The translations under genes were made by a program, and so were the position numbers. A DNA stretch of 64,000 nucleotides from Clostridiales bacterium (lineage in GTDB: Bacteria; Bacillota; Clostridia; Lachnospirales; Lachnospiraceae), in NCBI GenBank assembly GCA_020860715.1, contig JAJBTU010000033.1, positions 1 to 64,000 of the forward strand. Direction: 5' to 3'. How positions within the stretch are numbered: position 1 is the first letter of the stretch; each line of letters opens with the position of its first letter. Below the pieces are notes generated by a model. That model was not told where the DNA came from. It saw nothing but the letters and a program-made list of their open reading frames with translations, and searched no databases. Of the stretch, positions 49,138 through 64,000 are shown piece after piece.

Positions 49138-49217
49138 TAATGGATAAGACAAGGCGGTCTGATCGTGCGGTCAGTCTGCCTTCTTTTATGAGAAAACAAG
49201 TAGGAGGAGAAAACAAC

Positions 49218-50309
49218 ATGAAGAAGAAATTATTGTCAGTTGTTCTGGCAGGCATGATGGTTGCGGCTACGCTTAGCGGATGTGGTTCCAATACCAAGGA
49301 GACCGAGGCAGTGACCGAGGCAGCGACCGAGGCGGCGACAGAAGAAGTGACAGAAGCGGCGACGGAGGCTGAGACCGAAGAAGTAACGGAAGCGGCTACC
49401 GAAGCTGAGACCGAAGAAGTGACCGAGGCTGCAGAGGAGACCGAAGAGGAAACCGAGGAAGTGACGGAAGCGGCTGAGGAGACCGAAGAGGAAACGGAGG
49501 AAGTAACCGAAGCTGCAGAGGAGACGGAAGAAGAGACTGAGGCAGCTGAGACAGAAGAGGCTGAAGAAGCTGCTGATTACACTCTCAAAGAGGGAACCCT
49601 GATGGTAGGTATGGAGATTGGATATCCGCCGATGGAGTACTTTGACGAGGATGGCGCGACGGCGATCGGCTTTGATGTAGAAGTAGCGACTGCTCTGGCG
49701 GATGTGCTGGGACTGGAGCTTGAGCTTGTAGATACTGCCTGGGACGGTATTTTCGCAGGCGTGACTACGGACAAGTATGACTGCATCATTTCCAGCGTTT
49801 CCTACACAGAGGACAGAAATGACACGTATCTGCTGTCTTCCGCATATGTGGCAAACGCGCCGGTGATCGTGGTTCCGAACGATTCTGAGATCGCGGACGT
49901 CATGGATCTGGAAGGGATGTCTGTCGCGGTACAGATGGAGACGACCGCGGACTATCTGATCCAGGAGTACATCGCAGATGGTCTGGACACCGATCTGAGA
50001 CAGTATGAGAAAGTCATCAATGCCTTTGATGAGATCAAGGCCGGCCGGGTTGACGCGGTCTGCACGGATTCTGTAGTAGCTTCTTATTACCTGGGCGACG
50101 ATGCGAGCGATTACAAGACCGTATGGCAGTCTGATGAGAAAGAGCCGATCGTGATCTGCATGAAGCAGGGCAATGATGCGCTGGCAGAAAAGATCAATGA
50201 AGGCATGGCGGAACTGTTTGAGAACGGCACCATGGCTGAACTGGCAGTGAAGTACTTCGGTACCGAGGATGTCATTGATGGTCTGGCAGAGGGCTTTGGC
50301 GCAGAGTAA
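49218..50309 (+). CDS. Amino-acid ABC transporter substrate-binding lipoprotein with long Glu/Thr linker
   Basis: Family 3 polar-amino-acid binding lipoprotein, 363 residues. The lipobox is TLSGCGS, so it is anchored to the membrane by a lipid on Cys. Residues about 25-115 form a highly acidic repeat tract made of TEA, TEE and AEETEEE units, unusually long for this family. The binding domain starts YTLKEGTLMVGMEIGYPPMEY and contains DVEVATALADVLGLELELVDTAWDGIF and VTEDR-like SYTEDRNDTYLLSSAY. ATG 49218 follows AGGAGGAG. Permease and ATPase genes follow. Confidence 0.95.
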   Translation: MKKKLLSVVLAGMMVAATLSGCGSNTKETEAVTEAATEAATEEVTEAATEAETEEVTEAATEAETEEVTEAAEETEEETEEVTEAAEETEEETEEVTEAAEETEEETEAAETEEAEEAADYTLKEGTLMVGMEIGYPPMEYFDEDGATAIGFDVEVATALADVLGLELELVDTAWDGIFAGVTTDKYDCIISSVSYTEDRNDTYLLSSAYVANAPVIVVPNDSEIADVMDLEGMSVAVQMETTADYLIQEYIADGLDTDLRQYEKVINAFDEIKAGRVDAVCTDSVVASYYLGDDASDYKTVWQSDEKEPIVICMKQGNDALAEKINEGMAELFENGTMAELAVKYFGTEDVIDGLAEGFGAE

Positions 50310-54248: not shown

Positions 54249-54285
54249 GCCCGGAGCCGCCGCAGGCTGTGCAGCGATTCCGGGC
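54249..54285. terminator. Terminator between the converging lyase and trypsin-fold genes
   Basis: GCCCGGA / TCCGGGC with an inner stem. The reverse strand continues into five T, so it best serves the leftward gene. Confidence 0.65.
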
Positions 54286-54313
54286 GTTCGGATGTATTCA
54301 TAGAATGAATTCT

Positions 54314-55699
54314 TTATGACGCTTCTGCGAAGGCTTCAATGTAGATTCCGTCAACACTCTCCGGCATCCAGACGCCGATGCAGTCCCCATCTGCGTTCAC
54401 GATCGCGGCCGGCAGGAGCGAATCGTCTTCAAGCAGCATTTCCTCAATCGAGTCGGCGTTTTCACATTCCAGTCCATATAACCCGTCTGAGAGCACGGAG
54501 GAGCCGGAAATAGTGATGCTTGCTGTTTTTACTTCCAGATCCCCATCAAGATAAAGGAGGGTCGCCGATTCACCGATACTGGCGCGTACCGCTTCATAGA
54601 CCAGATAATCCTCATCCGGATCTCCGCTCCAACTGTCTGCGGAGAACAACGCCATCCCGGTATCTCCCCGTACGCCCGCGTATGTGACCTCTACCGAACC
54701 GGTCTCGATATAAGCCTGATAAGAGGCTGCTTCCGAGGTATAGACAGAAGAATCCGCCATCACGACCAGAGAGCCGTCTCCGCCGTCTAAGACGACAGCG
54801 GAAGAATACGCAACGATCTCATCGTCGGAATCGGTCCCCACCAGAAGCGCGAGATATTCAGGCACTTCTGCTTCGGCTTCCGCTTCAGTTTCTTCCCCGC
54901 TGGTCATATCATCCAGCAGACCTTTGGCCAGATTGTCTGCATCCGCCTCTTCTTCGGCCATGTCTGCAGCCATTTCTTCATCGGCTGTGTCTGCAGCTTC
55001 TTCTTCTGCTTCTGCATCCGTTTCTTCCGAATGGAATTCCTCCGCATCCGACATGAGACTGAAGAATGTCCCTGCACTCGAATAGATGCCGATGAGATTC
55101 CCGTCGTCATCGATCAGACCCGACAGTTCAAGACCAACGCCGTTGCTGTAGGCATCATCCGATAACACATCGCCATCCAGCGTCAGGATCTCTGTGCTTC
55201 CGATCGTTTCCAGCGAGGCTTTCGTCAGACGGATCTGTTCACTTGACGCTTCCAGATCATTGTCAAAAAATACGCAGTGCACGATAGAATCCTGTTGAGG
55301 ATAATCCAGTGTCACATAACGCGAGGACGACGGGGAACTGCCGGTAAATTCAAGTGTGAGCAGAGAATAATCGGTCATCTGGCCTGTGACTTCCACATCA
55401 TAGGAAACCATTTCATCAAAATCTGCCAGAGAGTAGGTAACCGCGTCCTCTGATGCTGCCGAGAGGTCCGTGACGATAAACACCGAACCGTCTGTATTCT
55501 GCACGATAAATGCGGCTCCGTAGGAAACAAGCTCATCCTCGGAATCACTTCCCATTATGAGAAAGATCTTGTCCGTCTGATCCTCCGAAGAAGAAGAGTC
55601 GGACGCTGCGGCCGGGACGGACATCGCTGCTGCCATCGAGAAGATCAGGAGCAGCACACTCCATAATTTTGTGAGACGGTTTGTCTTTTTTTGATTCAT
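54314..55699 (-). CDS. Secreted tandem trypsin-fold protein lacking an apparent catalytic triad
   Basis: 461 residues with a signal peptide (LWSVLLLIFSMAAAMSVPAAA). Two halves are related: IMGSDSEDELVSYGAAFIVQ and LVGTDSDDEIVAYSSAVVLD open each half, where chymotrypsin-like S1C proteases would have a GSGFI strand. Later LSGLIDDDGNLIGIY and AAIVNADGDCIGVW take the place of the GGPLLD..G.VIGI segment. The Ser of GNSGGP and the His after the TNAHV-like strand (here VTDLSAAS and VMADSS) are missing, so I read it as a pair of inactive trypsin folds. An acidic Glu/Ala-rich linker joins the halves. ATG 55699 follows AGGAGG. Its promoter carries the island operator. This is a fold inference, not an alignment. 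Confidence 0.55.
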   Translation of the reverse strand: MNQKKTNRLTKLWSVLLLIFSMAAAMSVPAAASDSSSSEDQTDKIFLIMGSDSEDELVSYGAAFIVQNTDGSVFIVTDLSAASEDAVTYSLADFDEMVSYDVEVTGQMTDYSLLTLEFTGSSPSSSRYVTLDYPQQDSIVHCVFFDNDLEASSEQIRLTKASLETIGSTEILTLDGDVLSDDAYSNGVGLELSGLIDDDGNLIGIYSSAGTFFSLMSDAEEFHSEETDAEAEEEAADTADEEMAADMAEEEADADNLAKGLLDDMTSGEETEAEAEAEVPEYLALLVGTDSDDEIVAYSSAVVLDGGDGSLVVMADSSVYTSEAASYQAYIETGSVEVTYAGVRGDTGMALFSADSWSGDPDEDYLVYEAVRASIGESATLLYLDGDLEVKTASITISGSSVLSDGLYGLECENADSIEEMLLEDDSLLPAAIVNADGDCIGVWMPESVDGIYIEAFAEAS

Positions 55700-55751
55700 G
55701 TTCAAAATCCTCCTTTTCTGATGTACAGATCACACGTACTCCCTTTTGAGT

Positions 55752-55785
55752 CAGTATAACGTAAATACGTTATAATTTCAACTCG
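55752..55785 (-). promoter_or_regulatory. Promoter of the trypsin-fold gene with island operator site 1
   Basis: On the reverse strand TTGAAA, 17 bases, TATACT. Inside lies TATAACG-N6-CGTTATA (55755-55774), covering the spacer and -10. Bases 55786-55980 between the two divergent promoters contain no ORF or other structure that I can support. Confidence 0.75.
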
Positions 55786-55982
55786 AAATCTTAATATGGA
55801 AGCCATGAAAAGAGATCGTCAGGGGTTCTTTCATTTCAGCCGCCGCGGCTGCGCTGTGGTTTTCTGTACGTTTGTTTATGATGATCGAAGTTTACCAGAT
55901 CAGCTTCTTTTTTTATCTACTCGGAGTAGAAAAAAACAGGAGAAATAAGAGTATGGTAGAGACATCAGAAAAAAGTTCTGAT

Positions 55983-56011
55983 TGTTATTATAACGGATAT
56001 GCGTTATAATC
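55983..56011 (+). promoter_or_regulatory. Promoter of the DnaJ-finger gene with island operator site 2
   Basis: TTGTTA (55983-55988), 17-base spacer, TATAAT (56006-56011). TATAACG-N6-CGTTATA (55990-56009) is identical in arms and spacing to site 1 and again fills the space from -35 to -10. Confidence 0.8.
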
Positions 56012-56078
56012 AGGAAAAATGAAATCAGGACATCAAAGAAGCAAATAATAAAACGATAAGAATTAAGGAGGTTCTATC

Positions 56079-57086
56079 ATGAAAAAAACAGGTACAGCAT
56101 TATTATTGACAATGGGTTTGATCTTTACAGCGAGTGTGGCTCCGCTGACGGATGCTTCCGTCCTTGTGGCTTCCGCATCGTCGGGGGTATCCATCTTCGA
56201 CGCGGCGGGAACGGCTTCGTCCTCTGATGCGTCGGAAGATTCCGATGCGGAATCGAACGAGTCGGTATACATCATTGGAGAAGGCCTGGAAGACGGAGAA
56301 GAAACAGAAGCAGCCGCGTCTGCGTCCGCGCAGGAAACAGAAGCGTCTTCTTCGGATGCGGTGAACGATCTGCTGACGATCCAGAATCCGGAGGACTATT
56401 TTGGAACAACGCCGATACAGGTAGGCAGCAACGATGAGGCAGTTTATCTGATCTTTAAGTTTAAAAGCGCGGAGGATGCGAGCCGCGCATACGATGAGTA
56501 TTCAGAACTGCTGCTGGAGAAATTCACGGAGGCGAGCACCGGGAAAAACTGGATGCGCTGTTTCTGCTATGCCGGCAATGACGGGGTGTACGGCTTTTAC
56601 AAATCGCAAGCAGGATGTACGATTGTAGCGGATCTTCTTTATATGGAGGAAGTGCCAAACGAGCTGCAGATCGATATCAGCAAGGACCTGACGATCATGG
56701 ATCTGGGAGAGCGTCCTGCAACGGAGTATTACATGATTGAGGGAAGCGCAAGCCTGAGCGATCTGGATGAGACTTCTGCCGACTCGGAGGACAGCGGGAC
56801 GGCGAACACAACTTCAACGAGCAGCTCTACGGATTATGACATCTATGATGATGACGATGATGACAGCAGCACCGGACTCAAGACTATGTGCGTAAAATGT
56901 CATGGCACGAAAAAGATTGAATGTTCGAATTGTGACGGGAAAGGATATAAGGAAGTATATATTCAGACTCCGAATTATTCCGGACACAGCGATACGTCAA
57001 CTACAGCGTATGAGGACTGCATGAAATGCCACGGCACAGGAGAGGTTACCTGTACCCGCTGCGATGGGACAGGGTATGAGCCGTGA
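56079..57086 (+). CDS. Secreted protein with C-terminal DnaJ-type zinc finger
   Basis: 335 residues, ATG 56079 behind AAGGAGG. A signal peptide (LLLTMGLIFTASVAPLTDASVLVA) is followed by an Ser/Ala/Asp/Glu-rich linker to about 105. A folded module follows (NPEDYFGTTPIQV ... AEDASRAYDEYSELLLEKF), then an acidic linker and a run of aspartates. The last 65 residues carry four CxxCxGxG-like repeats (C271/C274, C282/C285, C314/C317, C325/C328), exactly the layout of the DnaJ central domain that binds two zinc ions. Such a domain is normally cytoplasmic. Here it would be outside the cell. There is no J domain. The module in the middle resembles the repeats of the next gene. Confidence 0.65.
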   Translation: MKKTGTALLLTMGLIFTASVAPLTDASVLVASASSGVSIFDAAGTASSSDASEDSDAESNESVYIIGEGLEDGEETEAAASASAQETEASSSDAVNDLLTIQNPEDYFGTTPIQVGSNDEAVYLIFKFKSAEDASRAYDEYSELLLEKFTEASTGKNWMRCFCYAGNDGVYGFYKSQAGCTIVADLLYMEEVPNELQIDISKDLTIMDLGERPATEYYMIEGSASLSDLDETSADSEDSGTANTTSTSSSTDYDIYDDDDDDSSTGLKTMCVKCHGTKKIECSNCDGKGYKEVYIQTPNYSGHSDTSTTAYEDCMKCHGTGEVTCTRCDGTGYEP

Positions 57087-57126
57087 CAATAAAGGATAAA
57101 TTGTGATCGGAAAAAGGAGTCGGAGT

Positions 57127-58089
57127 ATGAAAATGAAAAGTTTACACAGAACAGGAACAGGTGCTTTTATAACGGCTGCCGGGCTTATGTCGGCGCTGAT
57201 CATCTCACAGGGGATTTCCTGTGAAAAGGTATCTGCCCAGACGCAGATCGTGCTTCCGGATCCGGTCGCCTTTTTCAATGCTGAGGAAGATGAGATTTTA
57301 GATGTTCCTGATGGTGAAAATTTTGAATATAGCAGTGCTACTGGATATGATGTGATGGATGCGGTGGAAGCCTATGCGAATCTGCTGATATCCGATTATA
57401 ATTTTAAAACGGAGGTCTGGGAGATTGATTATGATAGCATTTCTGATCCGGATCCGGAGGATTTTATGCTCATAGAAGTGGAAATCACCCTTGCTTATGA
57501 TGGAGATCCGGAGGAAGGGGAAATTTTCATCAGATATGCGCATAATAATGAAGAGAGAAATATATTCGCGATGGGCACGGCTGACGGCGTTTTCTCTTCT
57601 TATACGCTGGCGGAGACGGAGCCCTACGTACAGGGCAGTGCAGTTTTTTCACTGCCTGATCCGGATACAGTTCTTGGTGCTGAGGGCAAATGGGTGAAAG
57701 ACTCAGCTGCCGTAAAGTATCGGCTGGATGCGGATGCGGAGACGGCAGCGTCCGCCTATGTGTCTCTTCTTGAATCGGATTATGGCTTTCAGATCATAAA
57801 TAAGGAATATGACTATGAGTCATCAGAGGTTGCAGATTACGTTATGACGGTTGACCTTGCGCCGGAAGGAGACCGGACGCAGGGAAAGGTCACCGTGATC
57901 GCGTCGTCGATCAGCGATGATCAGGATTATATTTACATTTATGTTTCCAATCTCTCTGCGGACGTATCCCTGAACTGGGAGGAAATCACGGGGACAAATT
58001 CAGAAGATGGAAGTGCGTCGTCACAGGGAGAGGACGGGGAAGACAAAAGCCTGAACATTTCGGATATCAGAGGACTGCTTGGTGATTAA
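57127..58089 (+). CDS. Secreted protein with two copies of a shared module
   Basis: Unrecognised family, 320 residues. ATG 57127 follows AGGAG. A signal peptide ends near VSAQT. Two similar halves start LPDPVAFFNAEEDEILDV and LPDPDTVLGAEGKWVKDS, continue with a helix (VMDAVEAYANLLISDYNF and AETAASAYVSLLESDYGF) and a Tyr/Asp-rich strand. The upstream protein has one related unit. The tail is Ser/Glu/Asp-rich. It starts 41 bases after the DnaJ-finger gene and is probably in its operon. The extracellular location and the acidic linkers match the other secreted proteins of the island. Confidence 0.6.
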   Translation: MKMKSLHRTGTGAFITAAGLMSALIISQGISCEKVSAQTQIVLPDPVAFFNAEEDEILDVPDGENFEYSSATGYDVMDAVEAYANLLISDYNFKTEVWEIDYDSISDPDPEDFMLIEVEITLAYDGDPEEGEIFIRYAHNNEERNIFAMGTADGVFSSYTLAETEPYVQGSAVFSLPDPDTVLGAEGKWVKDSAAVKYRLDADAETAASAYVSLLESDYGFQIINKEYDYESSEVADYVMTVDLAPEGDRTQGKVTVIASSISDDQDYIYIYVSNLSADVSLNWEEITGTNSEDGSASSQGEDGEDKSLNISDIRGLLGD

Positions 58090-58169
58090 ATTACGGATGC
58101 CTGATGTGTGAATGGTCTGTGAGCGGTCTGCAGGCGGGAAACAAAATGAGATATAAATGATAATATGAC

Positions 58170-58214
58170 AAAAAGGCCGTTCTGCTTTTACGGTGAAGCG
58201 GAACGGTCATTTTT
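58170..58214. terminator. Bidirectional terminator
   Basis: AAAAAGGCCGTTC-GCTT / AAGC-GAACGGTCATTTTT, between the converging secreted-protein and XRE genes. It overlaps the end of the XRE gene. Confidence 0.8.
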
Positions 58215-58536
58215 CTGACAATCCTTTCATATAGGCGAGTGCCAGCTCCTGCTTCTGCGGCGGAAGAGAAGTGAAAAGGGAAAGACATCTTGCCTGCTCA
58301 TCGGTCAGCCCGCTTACGTCCCGGTTCGGATCGAAAAAGTCCGTAATAGAGATACCGAAACCGTCGCAGATCTTCTGCAGCGTCGTGAGCGAGGGCAGAT
58401 TCTGCTTGTGAAGCATGGTATTCAGAGTCGAATAGGTGATGCCGGAGGCCTTGGCCAGCCGGTAGTAAGACCAGCCCCGCTCTTCACACAATTCCTGAAT
58501 GCGGTTGAGTGCCTGTAATTCTTTTGAATCCTTCAT
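58207..58536 (-). CDS. XRE-family transcriptional regulator
   Basis: 109 residues. The Cro/C1 helix-turn-helix is RIQELCEERGWSYYRLAKAS, GITYSTLNTMLHKQNLPSLTTLQKICDGFGISITDFF. The C-terminal 35 residues (LTDEQARCLSLFTSLPPQKQELALAYMKGL) form a helical tail of the kind used for dimerisation. It is divergent from the PP2C gene and inside the phosphorylation island, so it is the local candidate for binding the TATAACG-N6-CGTTATA operators or the AACGATATAA repeats at 58635-58666. Neither is proven. Confidence 0.88.
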   Translation of the reverse strand: MKDSKELQALNRIQELCEERGWSYYRLAKASGITYSTLNTMLHKQNLPSLTTLQKICDGFGISITDFFDPNRDVSGLTDEQARCLSLFTSLPPQKQELALAYMKGLSEK

Positions 58537-58634
58537 AACGATCAGTCTTTCCTTTTGATTCGAAAATCATTCCCCTGCTTTTTATTTTTCTTATTCATGA
58601 TAGCCGAAATTCCGGAAATCACAAGATGTAAATA

Positions 58635-58667
58635 AACGATATAAATAGCACGTTAAAACGATATAAT
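58635..58667. promoter_or_regulatory. Direct repeats and -10 in the XRE/PP2C divergent region
   Basis: AACGATATAA occurs at 58635-58644 and 58657-58666, 22 bases apart (about two helical turns). The second copy contains a -10 TATAAT (58662-58667) for the PP2C gene, while a recognisable -35 is lacking. This suggests activator-dependent or repressed transcription. Confidence 0.5.
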
Positions 58668-58772
58668 CTGCACAGGGTTTTGTATGTCTGTACACACGGA
58701 GTAGATAAAACAGAAGCGTATTCTGATAGACTCTGGACATCAGATGGAAACAGAAAACAGGAGGTGTGTGTC

Positions 58773-59615
58773 ATGGAACTGAAGAAATGTCCGGAAGGCC
58801 ATTATTATGACGCATCGGTAAGCAATCAGTGTCCGATCTGCCGGCAAACCGGAACGGAAAACCGTCTGCTGGTCGGAAAGATACATGGCATCGGTTCAAG
58901 AAGCAGGCAGCAGGATACCTTTGGCATTTCCAGAGAAGGCGGCAGCGTGAGTACGGACGGCGTCGGGGTAGCTGCGGTTGTTGTGGATGGCATGGGCGGT
59001 CTTAAGAGCGGAGATCAGGCCAGTATGCAGGCAGGGATCAGCATGCTGCAGTCGTTTGCCATGCAGCCGGATCAGCTGCGCGGCGACCATAAACTTCTGG
59101 CCATGCTGAATGATGCAAACAATGAGGTCAACAGAGTATTGGACGGAAGCGGGCGGGAAAAAGACGGCGCTACGGTAGTGTCTGTGCTGATCCGGGAAAA
59201 CAGGATGTACTGGCTTTCTGTCGGAGACAGTCATATTTATCTTTACCGCGGCGGCGGTCTTCTCCAGCTCAACCGGGATCATGTGTGCGCGGTGGAACTG
59301 GATGAAATGGCGGCAAGAGGAGAGATCAGCGCGAAATCAGCGATGGAAGATCCCGGGCGAAAATCATTGACAAGTTATGTCGGGATGGATAAGATTAAGA
59401 AAATTGACCGCAATACTCGCCCGCTTTGCCTTCGGAGGGGCGACCGGATTTTGCTGATGTCGGATGGAGTGTTTGGCACATTGAGTGAGGAAGAGATTGC
59501 AGGCGCAATGAAAGATTCCGTGGAGGAAGCCTGCCGCGTGATGGAGCAGATGATACAGACAAAGAATCGGACCGGGCAGGACAATTATACGGCTCTTGTG
59601 CTGGAATTTCGATAA
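58773..59615 (+). CDS. PP2C-type Ser/Thr phosphatase with N-terminal zinc ribbon
   Basis: 280 residues, ATG 58773 behind AGGAGGTG. Residues 1-25 form a small metal-binding knuckle (C6, H10, C20, C23 in KKCPEGHYYDASVSNQCPIC). The PP2C domain follows: SRQQDTFGI, VVVDGMGGLKSGDQAS (metal-binding Asp and Gly), GATVVSVLI, LSVGDSHIYLYR, RILLMSDGVFG and GQDNYTALVLEFR. It has no membrane segment, so it acts in the cytoplasm and should reverse the phosphorylation made by the kinase encoded 51 bases downstream. Kinase-phosphatase pairs of this type (PrkC-PrpC) are usual in Firmicutes, but in this pair both partners have zinc ribbons. Confidence 0.92.
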   Translation: MELKKCPEGHYYDASVSNQCPICRQTGTENRLLVGKIHGIGSRSRQQDTFGISREGGSVSTDGVGVAAVVVDGMGGLKSGDQASMQAGISMLQSFAMQPDQLRGDHKLLAMLNDANNEVNRVLDGSGREKDGATVVSVLIRENRMYWLSVGDSHIYLYRGGGLLQLNRDHVCAVELDEMAARGEISAKSAMEDPGRKSLTSYVGMDKIKKIDRNTRPLCLRRGDRILLMSDGVFGTLSEEEIAGAMKDSVEEACRVMEQMIQTKNRTGQDNYTALVLEFR

Positions 59616-59666
59616 AGAGAAACGCTTTGTACTGCTGGAAAAAGAGAGCAGAGAGGAGTGCCGCAG

Positions 59667-62600
59667 ATGGGGATCGAGAGATGTTACGGCTGTATGGAGC
59701 CATGGAGCGGGATGGGACCATGCCCGCATTGTGGCTATGAATCAGGAAAACAGAATAACAGCCTGAATGTTCTCCCGGAGGGGACAGTACTTGCCGGAAA
59801 ATATTTGATCGGAAGGACACTCGGCGCGGGCGGATTCGGCATCACGTATATCGGATGGGATCTGAATCTGGATCTGAAGATCGCGATCAAAGAGTATTAT
59901 CCGAACAATTTTGTGTCGAGACAGGCCGAGTACAGCCACTGTGTGTCTGTGTTCAACCGCACCTATGTCTCACAGTACAATGCCGGCCTGGACGGATTTT
60001 TAACGGAGGCAAAGACGCTGGCGCGCTTTGTCCGTCAGCCGGGGATCGTCTTTGTGCGGGATTATTTTCAGGAAAACGGCACAGCCTATATCGTGATGGA
60101 ATTTGCGGAAGGACAGACACTCAGGGAGCTGCTTGCGCAGATGCCGGGAGAATGTCTTCCGGCAGACCGGGTTTTTGACATGATGCTTCCGGTCATGGAG
60201 GCGCTGGCAAAGGTACATAAGGCGGGGATGATCCACCGCGATATCAGCCCGGACAACCTGATGGTCGATCCGGAGGGGAAGGTAACGCTGCTGGATTTCG
60301 GCTCCGCGCGGGACTATACGGATGAAAAGAGTCTTTCCGTGATCTTAAAGCCCGGCTACGCGCCGGAGGAACAGTACCGCAAGCGCGGCAAACAGGGACC
60401 GTGGACGGACATCTACTCGCTCTGCGCGACGATGTACCGCGCCATCACCGGCCAGGTGCCGATGGATGCGCTGGACCGGCGGGAAAAGGATGAACTGAAA
60501 TCCCCTTCTGAGCTGGGAGTCAAAATCCGCCCGGAGCAGGAAAAGGCTCTGATGAAGGGCCTTTCTGTCCGTGCACAGGATCGCTTTCAGAGCATGGAGG
60601 AACTGATCAGGGAACTGGCGAAAATCAGACCAACGCCGGATCCCGGCCCAAAATGGAAATTCGTGATCGGCGGCACTGCCGCGGCAGCTGTGCTCGTGAT
60701 CGGGATCCTCTGTGCTGCCGTCTTTTCGGAAAAACGGGGCACGGTTGTGCCGGAAACAGAGACGGATACTGCTGCGATGGCCGAAGACGACGTGAATGCG
60801 GCCGGCGAGACGGATGAAAGTGGTAAGACCGGAGACACAGACGACGGAAGCGATGGAACGGAAATTGCCTCGATGACAGGGATCGAGCTGTCGGCGCTTT
60901 CCCTGGAGGATATTTTTGCGGACGCAGTCACCTACAGCGGCGATTCGCAGGAGGAATTTTATGAACTGCTTGCATCAGACGATGTATCGGCGGTGATTTT
61001 GGACTCACATCTGGGTCTGACGACGGGAGCGCTTGCCATATCAAAACCTCTGCAGATTACCGCGAACGGTGGCTTTGACGGTTATGTGCCGATCACCGTC
61101 AGCAGCGGCGGGTATGTCCGGATCGAGGAGGATGGCCAGTTCTGCTCGTGGGACGGATTACTTCAGGTGACGGACGGCGGCTGCATATCCGTTGCTGACG
61201 GAGGACTTCTGGCCGACAATGCATTGATCTGGCTGGAACAGGAGGAGAACCTGCTGCTGGAGGACGGAGCAGATCTCTCTCTGAACGGAAATTCGTATGA
61301 CACACGGGAGGAAGCGCTGGAGAGCGTTCCGGACATGCTGTTCCTCCTTGATATCGATGAGTTATTTGCAGATGCGGTTCACGTAACGACGCAGGAAGAC
61401 TATCAGGAGGCCAGAGAAAAGGGAGCGTCCGCCATCGTCATTGACGCGGATCTGACGCTGGGCGAGGAATACAGTGTGATAGACATTCCGCTGATGATCA
61501 GCGAGGGCGTGACCCTGTCGGGCGGGAGTGAGACTTCTGCGGACGGGGATGATCCGTGGACGATATTCCTGCAGGGCAGCGCGGTGCTGGTGAATTACGG
61601 TACGCTGTCCGGCAGACTGAATACGGACGACAGCAATGGAGGTTACGTAACTGCGCTTAATTATGGCACGATGGACTGTGAAATCATTGATATGCAGGCA
61701 AGTGGCTGGCTGTTGAATTATGGCAGTATGCAGATCGGCTGCCACGAAGTCCGAAATACGCTGATTTATAACCTGGGTACGATCCGCATGACCGGCACGG
61801 AACAGGCCGGAGAGAATTGGGTCGATCTCTATACGGCCTTCTATAATTACGGAACCCTGCAGGTGGAGCCGGAGACAATGGATTCCATGTATCTGTCCCT
61901 GCATGGGAATGCCAGTCTTTTGAACAGCGGTACGTTGACCATCGGTGAAAACAGCTGGCTCACCAGCGACGCGATCATTCGAAACCGCGGGACGATCACT
62001 CTGGAATCCCAGACTTCGGGGCTGTCAAACAGCGGCCTGATTTATTGCAATGAGTCTTCCAGTATACTTGCTCTTGCTGAGGGCAGTGCCTGTGACAATA
62101 CCGGCATCATTTTCTACAGCGAAGCATCAGCTACAGACATTCCGGATTCCGGCAGTTCAGGTTTTCTCTGGTTTGGCTGGAATGTATTGGATTTGGAATC
62201 TGTCTGTGATGTCTATTCGGAAGAGGAACTGAACAGCGCTCTTGCCGATGAGAACTGCAAATGCATTGTTATGCAGGATTCCACGATCGAGGTGTCTGGT
62301 GATCTTACTGTTACGGATAAGCTGCTGGTCATAGACGGAGAAGATACCTCTCTGATTGTGAAAGACGGAGATCTGATCGTCTCAGGGGAAAGCGGAGGTT
62401 TGTACGGAGCGGGCGGCACGATCAATCTGTACGGGGGTACTCTCGTTCTTGATACCGGTGCGGCAGCGATTTTTGAGACTTCGGATCTTTTGGAAAACTG
62501 TGTCGGGATCACAGTCCGTGAAAACGCCGGAATTGTGATAAATTCCTATGAAGCGGATTTGTCCGGCATGACGATTGCGTTATCTGACGGAGCGCATTTC

Positions 62601-63074
62601 ACCAGTCTGCACGATCTGGGACTGTACAGCTGCAGCCTGCTGCTCCTGGACTCACAGTTTTTCTGTAATGACAGTCTGGCAATTTATAATTGCAGCGTGA
62701 ATATCCAATCCGGCGGGACTCTGGACGTGGAGAATTATGACAACGGCGGCGGACTCTTCATAGATGCAAAGTCCGCGGTGATGATTGAAGAGGGCGGCGT
62801 GATGGAACTCGGAGAGTCTGTGGTGACGATAGCGGGAAGCGTGGAGAACGCCGGAGAACTGCATATTCGTTACGCCCCGTCAACGGATATCAGCGGCTCC
62901 CTGGTCAACACGGGTACCGTTCGCTTCTGCAACGAGATCGGCCTCACCGGTACGCTGGAAAATTCGGGTACTGTCTATGCGGTGGCGGACGGAGACAACC
63001 CCATCATCACAGTGCAGGAGGACGGCAGCTTTACCGGAAACGAGCCGGAAACGCTGGATACATGGCCGTGGTGA
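59667..63074 (+). CDS. Receptor Ser/Thr protein kinase with zinc ribbon and repetitive extracellular region
   Basis: 1135 residues, ATG 59667 behind AGAGGAG (the GTG at 59658 overlaps that site). N-terminal zinc ribbon C6/C9/C19/C22 (CYGCMEPW, CPHCGYE). Kinase domain about 44-320, with all Hanks residues: GAGGFG 53-58, Lys75 in IAIKEYYP, Glu in TEAKTLARF, HRD 190-192 (HRDISPDN), DFG 210-212, and PGYAPEE. One membrane helix at about 331-353. The outer 780 residues lack PASTA repeats. They contain three related segments (IFADAVTYSGDSQEEFYELL, LFADAVHVTTQEDYQEAREK, VCDVYSEEELNSALADENCK) each followed by beta-helix-like strands (LLNSGTLTIG, NYGTLQVEP, ENAGELHI). The ligand is unknown. Confidence 0.92.
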   Translation: MGIERCYGCMEPWSGMGPCPHCGYESGKQNNSLNVLPEGTVLAGKYLIGRTLGAGGFGITYIGWDLNLDLKIAIKEYYPNNFVSRQAEYSHCVSVFNRTYVSQYNAGLDGFLTEAKTLARFVRQPGIVFVRDYFQENGTAYIVMEFAEGQTLRELLAQMPGECLPADRVFDMMLPVMEALAKVHKAGMIHRDISPDNLMVDPEGKVTLLDFGSARDYTDEKSLSVILKPGYAPEEQYRKRGKQGPWTDIYSLCATMYRAITGQVPMDALDRREKDELKSPSELGVKIRPEQEKALMKGLSVRAQDRFQSMEELIRELAKIRPTPDPGPKWKFVIGGTAAAAVLVIGILCAAVFSEKRGTVVPETETDTAAMAEDDVNAAGETDESGKTGDTDDGSDGTEIASMTGIELSALSLEDIFADAVTYSGDSQEEFYELLASDDVSAVILDSHLGLTTGALAISKPLQITANGGFDGYVPITVSSGGYVRIEEDGQFCSWDGLLQVTDGGCISVADGGLLADNALIWLEQEENLLLEDGADLSLNGNSYDTREEALESVPDMLFLLDIDELFADAVHVTTQEDYQEAREKGASAIVIDADLTLGEEYSVIDIPLMISEGVTLSGGSETSADGDDPWTIFLQGSAVLVNYGTLSGRLNTDDSNGGYVTALNYGTMDCEIIDMQASGWLLNYGSMQIGCHEVRNTLIYNLGTIRMTGTEQAGENWVDLYTAFYNYGTLQVEPETMDSMYLSLHGNASLLNSGTLTIGENSWLTSDAIIRNRGTITLESQTSGLSNSGLIYCNESSSILALAEGSACDNTGIIFYSEASATDIPDSGSSGFLWFGWNVLDLESVCDVYSEEELNSALADENCKCIVMQDSTIEVSGDLTVTDKLLVIDGEDTSLIVKDGDLIVSGESGGLYGAGGTINLYGGTLVLDTGAAAIFETSDLLENCVGITVRENAGIVINSYEADLSGMTIALSDGAHFTSLHDLGLYSCSLLLLDSQFFCNDSLAIYNCSVNIQSGGTLDVENYDNGGGLFIDAKSAVMIEEGGVMELGESVVTIAGSVENAGELHIRYAPSTDISGSLVNTGTVRFCNEIGLTGTLENSGTVYAVADGDNPIITVQEDGSFTGNEPETLDTWPW

Positions 63075-63110
63075 CAGGAAAAAATACAGGATTTGCGCAC
63101 AAAAGGAAAG

Positions 63111-63142
63111 GACGGCTGCTGCATTGGCGGCCGTCTTTTTTT
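63111..63142 (+). terminator. Terminator of the kinase gene
   Basis: GACGGC-GC / GC-GCCGTC followed by seven T. Confidence 0.88.
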
Positions 63143-63184
63143 CATGAAAAAGATTGTAATTTGCGCACGAATTCCATATAATGT

Positions 63185-63292
63185 GACTTATCGGAAGGAG
63201 AGGACGCTTGCGTACTCGGAACCGATAAGTCAGTGACAGAATCGATAGCTGCGAGTTGCCGCTATCGCGAAGCGATTTTAAATAGCGGCAAC
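63185..63292 (+). repeat. Two inverted repeats in the leader of the last gene
   Basis: GACTTATCGG / CCGATAAGTC (63185-63231) has the tip ACGC-TT-GCGT, the same GC-TT-GC tip as elements 2 and 3. GTTGCCGCTAT / ATAGCGGCAAC (63255-63292) has inner TCGC-gaa-GCGA. Confidence 0.7.
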
Positions 63293-63335
63293 GACCTGGC
63301 AGAAGAAAAGTGCGCTTGCGGAAGGAGGATTAGCA

Positions 63336-64000
63336 ATGGAATTTAACCGCTGCCCGGGCTGCATGGAAGAATGGACAGGTGAGGGCGTGTGTCCGCATTG
63401 CGGATATGATGCGAAAAAGGAAGCAGGAGCAGGCGTTATGGCGTATCTCCCGGCGAAGACCATTTTGGCAGGACGGTATGTCTCCGGGAAAGTCTTTGAG
63501 AGCGATGATATCGGGAACACTCATATCGGCTGGGACCTGAACATGGAGCGCAAGGTGGCGATTCGCGAATACAATCCGCGAAATGCTGCCCGCCGAAAAA
63601 CAGAGAATGGCAGAAGCCTGCTGGTCCCGAGACCGGGCTGTCAGGAGACATACCAGACCGGGCTGGACAAGTTTATCCGTGATGCGAAGGCGTACACGCG
63701 TTTTCTGCGTCATCCGCAGATCGGAGCGACGCGGGATATCTTTCAGGAAAATGGCACGGCTTATGTCGTGATGGAATATCTGGAGCAGACGGTCATCAAT
63801 GCCGCGGTGGAGCGGGTAGGAGCGACGATCCGTATGATCGAGGCGGATGTACCGCTGGATGAGATGATGGAAGACAAACCGTCCATGAAGACGGTTGGAG
63901 ATCTGCTTCTTCCGAAACTTGGGAAAAAAGACATGTCTGTGGAGACTATGGCGCAGCTCGCCGGATTGAGCCGTGCAGCCGGCTACAAGCTGATCCGCAA
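63336..64000 (+). CDS. Zinc-ribbon pseudokinase N-lobe with a downstream helix-turn-helix-like region (partial, runs off the window)
   Basis: ATG 63336 behind GGAGGA. The frame stays open to the end of the window (221 codons visible). Zinc ribbon MEFNRCPGCMEEWTGEGVCP then HCGY (C6/C9/C19/C22) matches the upstream kinase. The following 115 residues parallel its kinase N-lobe (ILAGRYVSGKVFESDDIGNTHIGWDLNMERKVAIREYNP, given here in parts: IGWDLNMERK, VAIREYNP). The glycine loop is lost and the ATP-anchoring Lys is Arg. After the hinge (AYVVMEYLE) no HRD or DFG appears in the visible part. Instead the sequence TVGDLLLPKLGKKDMSVETM and AQLAGLSRAAGYKLIRK looks like an XRE-type helix-turn-helix. It may be a nonphosphorylating sensor or transcription factor partner of the kinase. 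Confidence 0.7.
   Translation, partial: MEFNRCPGCMEEWTGEGVCPHCGYDAKKEAGAGVMAYLPAKTILAGRYVSGKVFESDDIGNTHIGWDLNMERKVAIREYNPRNAARRKTENGRSLLVPRPGCQETYQTGLDKFIRDAKAYTRFLRHPQIGATRDIFQENGTAYVVMEYLEQTVINAAVERVGATIRMIEADVPLDEMMEDKPSMKTVGDLLLPKLGKKDMSVETMAQLAGLSRAAGYKLIR

Follow-up and report, generated by a model that had tools for sequence, protein, structure and literature searches.

A kinase N-lobe fused to a helix-turn-helix-like domain as a possible output adaptor of a probably reduced phospho-signalling island in a Lachnospiraceae genome

The stretch of DNA considered here (the window, 64,000 nucleotides) comprises bases 1-64000 of contig 9 of a Lachnospiraceae genome of 2.67 Mb (GCA_020860715.1, contig JAJBTU010000033.1), and towards its end it carries genes for an XRE regulator, a PP2C phosphatase, a receptor kinase and a pseudokinase next to three genes for exported-looking proteins (SecA, SecB and SecC). 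A first-pass annotation had claimed seven open reading frames (ORFs) at 54249..64000 and had regarded them as one functionally linked set; all seven are present, spanning 54314-64000 in the ORF list, and the linkage is supported for XRE, PP2C, kinase and pseudokinase and not supported for the three secreted proteins. These four genes resemble, in shrunken form, an island of other Lachnospiraceae, and the last of them encodes a kinase N-lobe fused to a domain, here named HTHk, which resembles a Cro/C1-type helix-turn-helix (HTH) with a C-terminal extension. In the following, G000 denotes the window's own genome, other G numbers its relatives and L numbers the loci or records compared; the Sec counts include the own genome, and counts refer to a genus set of 47 genomes, to 79 genomes for the SecA search and to a class set of 293 genomes for HTHk. 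The features of the region are the following:

54314..55705, minus strand: SecA, exported-looking, 463 aa, with a duplicated module; a separate unit, not counted in the kinase system
55756..55773, no strand: palindrome ATAACG-N6-CGTTAT in the gap between SecA and SecB
55990..56007, no strand: second palindrome ATAACG-N6-CGTTAT, before SecB
56079..57086, plus strand: SecB, exported-looking, 335 aa, with a C-terminal DnaJ-type finger
57103..58089, plus strand: SecC, exported-looking, 328 aa, with two related modules
58175..58208, no strand: two-way terminator between SecC and XRE, 14-pair stem
58207..58536, minus strand: XRE (Cro/C1-type) regulator, Pfam PF13443 (HTH_26) and HTH_3
58634..58664, no strand: direct repeat AAACGATAT in two copies, 22 bp apart, between XRE and PP2C
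58770..59615, plus strand: PP2C phosphatase with zinc knuckle, PF13672 and PF00481
59658..63074, plus strand: receptor kinase with zinc ribbon, catalytic domain (aa 39-317), one transmembrane stretch and a 778-aa ectodomain
63110..63140, plus strand: terminator 3' of the kinase gene, -19.0 kcal/mol
63154..63182, plus strand: promoter-like TTGTAA-17-TATAAT of the pseudokinase gene
63336..64000 in the window, ending at 64229, plus strand: N-lobe-only pseudokinase fused to HTHk, 297 aa

Promoters, terminators and strands suggest about five transcription units for the seven genes. The XRE regulator was recognised by HTH_26 (4e-14) and HTH_3 (5e-11) and is 96% identical in the relatives G008 and G039, with ratios of non-synonymous to synonymous substitutions (dN/dS) of 0.043 and 0.055. 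The direct repeats in the gap between XRE and PP2C have their sole copies in the window at this place, a similar stretch was seen by eye in G008 and G039, and they are a possible candidate for the XRE operator. The PP2C assignment was likewise borne out (PF13672 6e-10, PF00481 2e-7; by eye VVDGMGG, GDSHIY, SDGVFG and QDNYTA), with a dN/dS of 0.156. Nucleotides 3-77 of the PP2C gene align to the zinc-knuckle start of a G008 FHA gene and nucleotides 86-846 to the PP2C domain of the gene coming next there, a transmembrane PP2C, and because its zinc knuckle matches the start of that FHA gene, the window PP2C looks like a fusion by deletion of two G008-like genes. The receptor kinase is a Ser/Thr kinase (PF00069, 2e-28) whose best match in the PDB is PpkA (2e-49; entries 5hnv and 5x1r), a kinase of the Serratia type VI secretion system (T6SS). 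By eye it has one transmembrane stretch and the motifs GAGGFG, AIKE, HRD and DFG, and judged by motifs both kinase and PP2C look catalytically complete. Its ectodomain had been described as not PASTA-type, which is correct: no PASTA match was obtained at E<=0.1, and the NF033483 score is 148.7 bits against a cut-off of 450 bits; a kinase in a PrkC setting (named by eye) sits on contig 4. As read from the sequence, the ectodomain is probably beta-rich and beta-helical, and it is 60% identical to that of the G008 kinase, as compared to 88% for the catalytic part. The zinc ribbon or knuckle said to be common to the cytosolic signalling proteins is present as a knuckle in PP2C and as a ribbon in both kinase and pseudokinase.

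The last gene had been annotated as a pseudokinase-like protein, of which the kinase-derived nature and the zinc ribbon stand; it is, however, no whole kinase, and the window end had cut it. The complete frame (contig 9, 63336-64229) encodes a zinc ribbon, an N-lobe and the HTH-like domain HTHk, whereby the glycine loop and the catalytic lysine of the N-lobe are lost and a C-lobe is lacking. The N-lobe fold is supported by a structure model and by a PDB match to PpkA. Against G008 the dN/dS is 0.078 and the zinc-ribbon cysteines are kept; by this measure the pseudokinase is under purifying selection, and a pseudokinase whose N-lobe is maintained by selection in the absence of a C-lobe would be of an unusual kind. 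Its HTHk part matches the HTHk profile with E 3.6e-58, the window copy itself being a row of that alignment, and reaches 22 bits against the Pfam Cro/C1 HTH family at a cut-off of 22; PDB matches of HTHk are weak, the best being C.AhdI (E 0.014), and PHROGs gave at most weak HTH matches. The promoter-like site of the gene shares its hexamers and their spacing with G008 and G039, and after the kinase gene a hairpin of differing sequence stands at the same place in G008. The promoter scan counted 12 such sites in the region versus 9.6 (standard deviation 3.0) in shuffles, so that the scan alone proves nothing, and the terminator scan 15 terminator-like sites versus 9.2 (standard deviation 3.0). 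The leader of this gene contains 76 bases with a palindrome (63224-63299) which are absent in G008 and G039 and possibly represent a small inserted repeat; the idea of a conserved leader RNA was dropped for this absence, and the three matches of an Rfam scan were all under the gathering score. Downstream of the pseudokinase gene follow a small gene, Sel1-like by eye and with no Pfam match, and then genes read as ispF and cysS.

In G008 the island occupies the slot of the window, between patB and cysS, and holds XRE, a membrane FHA protein, PrsW, an FHA protein, two PP2Cs and three full kinases; the pseudokinase and the small gene are there too. In the window this slot contains a zinc-ribbon kinase, a PP2C and the N-lobe protein, and FHA, PrsW and membrane FHA genes are absent in the region; FHA matches number one in the own genome (on contig 18) versus seven in G008. 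XRE, PP2C, kinase and pseudokinase recur as a set, in the same slot in G008 and as a broken remnant in G039. Matches to the zinc ribbon with N-lobe or to the HTHk of the pseudokinase were obtained in 22 of the 47 genus genomes (E<=1e-6), often with several kinases per cluster. One set, comprising membrane FHA, PrsW-FHA, kinase-FHA and zinc-knuckle FHA proteins, PP2Cs, a zinc-ribbon kinase, a kinase and a zinc-ribbon protein, was found in G041, G043, G045, G046 and L094, with not each element profile-called in each and one kinase fewer in L094; its zinc-ribbon protein matches only the first 110-116 of the 278 kinase profile positions. An EssC variant of the island was found at L071, L072, L079 and L086, WXG100-like genes being seen by eye in the first three. 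Another island type (L068, L074, L078) has zinc-ribbon proteins of 238-249 aa which match only the middle of the kinase profile. That the membrane FHA proteins of the island are trypsins was rejected, as Trypsin_2 matches only the G021 protein and none of four others (L067, L069, L070, L081). As to the direction of change, reduction in the window lineage appears to be the case rather than gain in G008. The first-pass annotation did not recognise the gene set as a described system, and indeed no description of it, of the N-lobe-HTHk fusion or of HTHk was found by searches of the open-access PubMed Central (PMC) literature.

HTHk occurs in 38 of 47 genus genomes (E<=1e-5) and in 96 of 293 class genomes (E<=1e-8), both counts including a longer, weaker family. 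Frames of this longer HTHk-like family, about 330-450 aa in length, match weakly in many Clostridia, and a member of it stands upstream of the islands in G041, G043, G045, G046 and L094. The gene next upstream of the window HTHk gene is the kinase gene, and such adjacency was found to be common. From 51 genus matches at E<=1.4e-20, seven were already in the set and 40 of the remaining 44 were taken; 37 of these 40 loci have a kinase gene at most 370 bp from HTHk, arranged as HTHk-then-kinase on the same strand (28), divergently (7) or convergently (2), and the 40 stretches, 3.1-8.4 kb long, gave no PP2C or FHA match. Among 29 class loci, all from other genomes, 24 have a kinase at most 1.5 kb away, five on the same strand and 19 divergent. 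Overall, HTHk lies beside a Ser/Thr kinase in 61 of 69 loci, the exceptions being L146 and L148 (short contigs) and L160 in the genus and L167, L170, L173, L189 and L191 in the class (flanks of 1.5 kb), whereby chance adjacency amounts to about 1% or less by our own estimate from kinase counts (about 264 in 47 genomes). An HRD-type motif is kept in 57 of 59 kinase ORFs from the HTHk loci (L009, L010 and L082 included), and 56 of the 59 align only past profile position 30 versus none of 43 island kinases, a contrast which is favoured by the kinase profile having been built from island kinases. Stand-alone HTHk proteins have a conserved N-terminal Thr region, and in a midpoint-rooted tree the HTHk parts of the fused proteins (G000, G008 and G030) appear to cluster with a stand-alone HTHk of G039. 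Adjacency and fusion together suggest that HTHk works with kinases, probably through contact with the kinase N-lobe. It is tentatively proposed, with somewhat less than even confidence, that HTHk and an atypical Hanks-type kinase form an undescribed two-gene signalling system of Clostridia which needs neither a PP2C nor an FHA protein in its vicinity and whose regulator would dock on the kinase N-lobe, and that in the window lineage this contact was fixed by fusion of HTHk to a spare, ATP-dead N-lobe.

For the locus as a whole, a reading which we hold at slightly less than even chances is that of a reduced phospho-signalling island with its output via an N-lobe-HTHk adaptor docked on the kinase. 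The receptor kinase would sense something outside the cell by its ectodomain, and the cytosolic PP2C would reset the kinase targets. Output would no longer run through island FHA proteins, which the own genome lacks, and would instead use the separately transcribed adaptor, whose N-lobe copy may dock on the kinase by N-lobe pairing, i.e., as a docking mimic. The state of the kinase would then control whether HTHk binds DNA, tying the kinase to transcription. To our knowledge, little is known about the route from membrane Ser/Thr kinases to the genome in gut Clostridia, and HTHk, with its kinase neighbour in nearly all loci, is a direct candidate for this missing output arm.

Several observations weigh against this adaptor reading. 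The HTH part of the pseudokinase model is poor (pLDDT 32-57), and of seven stand-alone HTHk proteins scanned only one (L154) exceeds the Pfam HTH cut-off, and in a separate scan L010 gave no match. A zinc ribbon was found in only two of the 59 kinase ORFs at HTHk loci, hence for the most part the partners of HTHk differ in subtype from the kinase of the window. What precedes the gene of the fused protein in G030 is no kinase gene but the end of an unrelated ORF at a contig edge, and the promoter-like site of the pseudokinase gene was not found there; the fusion can consequently exist without an adjoining kinase, for which reason the adaptor reading was weighed slightly lower and a one-component function slightly higher. 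The stand-alone HTHk of G039 (L082) adjoins a zinc-ribbon kinase whose gene contains an in-frame stop. Since G039 has XRE with broken island pieces only and G013 lacks the island in this slot, the system is dispensable.

The one-component function just named would make the N-lobe-HTHk protein a zinc or redox sensor acting via its zinc ribbon and without kinase contact. The kept cysteines, the own promoter-like site together with the terminator after the kinase gene and the situation in G030 are in line with it, yet the N-lobe fold is kept under strong selection, and HTHk is elsewhere nearly always found beside a kinase; we regard it as unlikely. A decaying island without present function appears quite unlikely. 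The FHA, PrsW, membrane FHA and extra kinase genes of G008 are missing, the PP2C would be a deletion fusion, and the remnants in G039 and the absence in G013 fit decay as well; on the other hand, XRE, PP2C, kinase and pseudokinase have open frames with dN/dS well under 1, catalytic motifs are kept (by eye), and terminators and the promoter-like site are common to G008.

The secreted proteins had been proposed to act on the receptor kinase as ligands or to be its extracellular substrates, an idea that rests on adjacency in the window and to which the two secreted-family genes of the G008 island, one of them between same-strand kinase genes, and the finger-gene remnant that adjoins XRE in G039 lend some support. 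Their distribution argues otherwise. SecA was found in 2 of 79 genomes and SecC in 4 of 47; matches to SecB or its finger, most of them weak, came from 12 of 47. Two secreted genes occupy the slot in G013, where the island is absent; contig 17 of the own genome carries a second SecA/SecB/SecC set with no kinase seen within 20 kb, and G038 has secreted-family relatives with no kinase within the 8.8 kb examined. Conversely, most of the 22 genomes with zinc-ribbon genes lack SecA or SecC, and with only two of the four SecC genomes among them no association between SecC and the pseudokinase shows, so that the co-occurrence of the secreted families with such kinases in relatives is largely absent. 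Nor is a shared transcriptional control of the two halves apparent: they are separated by the strong two-way terminator (-23.4 kcal/mol; G008 counterpart -26.7/-28.2), and the palindrome ATAACG-N6-CGTTAT, present twice in the window versus 0.07 expected and nowhere else in the own genome, lies on the Sec side only, none with at most one mismatch being found in the XRE-PP2C gap. Five relatives gave no exact match to this palindrome; degenerate versions of it were seen by eye ahead of Sec genes on contig 17 and in G013 and G008. Own-genome Sec copies differ with dN/dS of 0.42-0.52 (0.52 for SecA versus its contig-17 copy), though SecA gives 0.20 versus G013. The terminator with its G008 counterpart, the palindromes confined to the Sec side and the distribution together speak against one linked system of seven genes, as regards both conservation beside such kinases and common control. 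Secreted kinase partners were thus rejected on distribution and transcription and are considered very improbable; the three genes look like an independent, modular exported family sharing the chromosomal slot, to which no role is assigned. We suppose that the locus joins two things that are unrelated, this exported family and a slimmed kinase-phosphatase island.

As to the secreted proteins themselves, the claimed duplicated module was found in two of them, the halves of SecA being alike with 23% over 172 aa (E 5e-13) and those of SecC with 31% over 97 aa (E 1e-8). The trypsin fold assigned to SecA found neither a Pfam nor a PDB match, and its comparison with the island membrane FHA proteins gave an hhalign probability of 34%. 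The DnaJ finger of SecB is visible as four CxxCxG repeats, but PF00684 matches it weakly (1.2e-4), under its cut-off. Acidic linkers are present on all three, but are no special mark of them, since the composition test flags other proteins of the genome too. One of those flagged is a solute-binding protein (by eye; 49140-50309), whose lipobox is followed by a long, repetitive linker of Thr, Glu and Ala. Beside the second secreted set on contig 17 lies a giant protein of 2066 aa with RHS repeats and immunoglobulin-like domains (L062, 1835-8637). A 210-aa frame that begins with a signal-like sequence overlaps it on the upstream side, and the two may be one gene split by a frameshift. In G008, a 163-aa protein with no family named (L061, 9599-10090) lies between a secreted-family gene and a kinase gene.

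Among known systems, the PrkC/Stk1 PASTA kinases differ from the window kinase, which stays under the NF033483 cut-off and is without PASTA repeats. With the PpkA/PppA/Fha module of T6SS the window shares a PpkA-like domain, in both kinase and N-lobe; however, its kinase has a 778-aa ectodomain and its second protein no C-lobe, and neither a T6SS gene nor FHA was found among the nine window proteins scanned. HipBA consists of an XRE antitoxin and a kinase toxin, and an HTH gene often lies directly upstream of the kinase gene, as with HTHk; the HTHk partners match a Hanks-type kinase profile instead, and the HTHk profile reaches HipB in the PDB only with E 0.93. Type VII secretion (T7SS) loci of the classes T7SSc-T7SSj contain a kinase, a PPM phosphatase and FHA proteins according to PMC11217815, i.e., the same kinds of proteins, and EssC-bearing loci of this type are present in G001, G010, G035 and G036, those of G001, G035 and G036 also with WXG100-like genes by eye. 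T7SS membership of the window was nevertheless rejected, as an EssC query found only an FtsK-level match in the own genome (E 1e-16); WXG100 was absent from the same nine proteins, the rest of the genome not having been searched for it. In the excerpt of PMC7159879, an actinobacterial zinc-ribbon kinase is described from GAP1-N2 neighbourhoods, together with genes for PP2C and vWA, and adjoins the PP2C gene as in the window, but this is another phylum, the excerpt mentions no N-lobe-HTH protein, and no GTPase or vWA match was obtained among the nine proteins. Kinase-kinase-phosphatase (KKP) triplets, whose kinases act on a DNA-binding protein according to PMC11341870, resemble the window in that PP2C is followed by two kinase-like genes. 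That the locus is a KKP-like toxin-antitoxin or phage-defence module is nonetheless the least probable explanation, as the PADLOC matches of the kinase domain (PD-T4-6 and mad6) also cover an HTHk-partner kinase and hence look generic, PP2C has no PADLOC match, no FHA or cold-shock domain, as KKP has them, was found among the nine proteins, and the third protein, with its N-lobe joined to HTHk, has no C-lobe. Bacterial pseudokinase families including DYD and ActPs3 were delineated in PMC12599244; according to the sections available, DYD shows a lysine-to-arginine change as does the window N-lobe, and ActPs3 a back-to-back dimer with constraints in the N-lobe, while 'zinc', 'helix-turn-helix' and 'PP2C' do not occur in its main text. 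Unlike these families, the window pseudokinase lacks the C-lobe entirely. The N-lobe-HTHk fusion indicates the part of the kinase to be tested as docking site, and if the two-gene system proposed for HTHk is real, such a half kinase would be a plug between receptor kinase and DNA.

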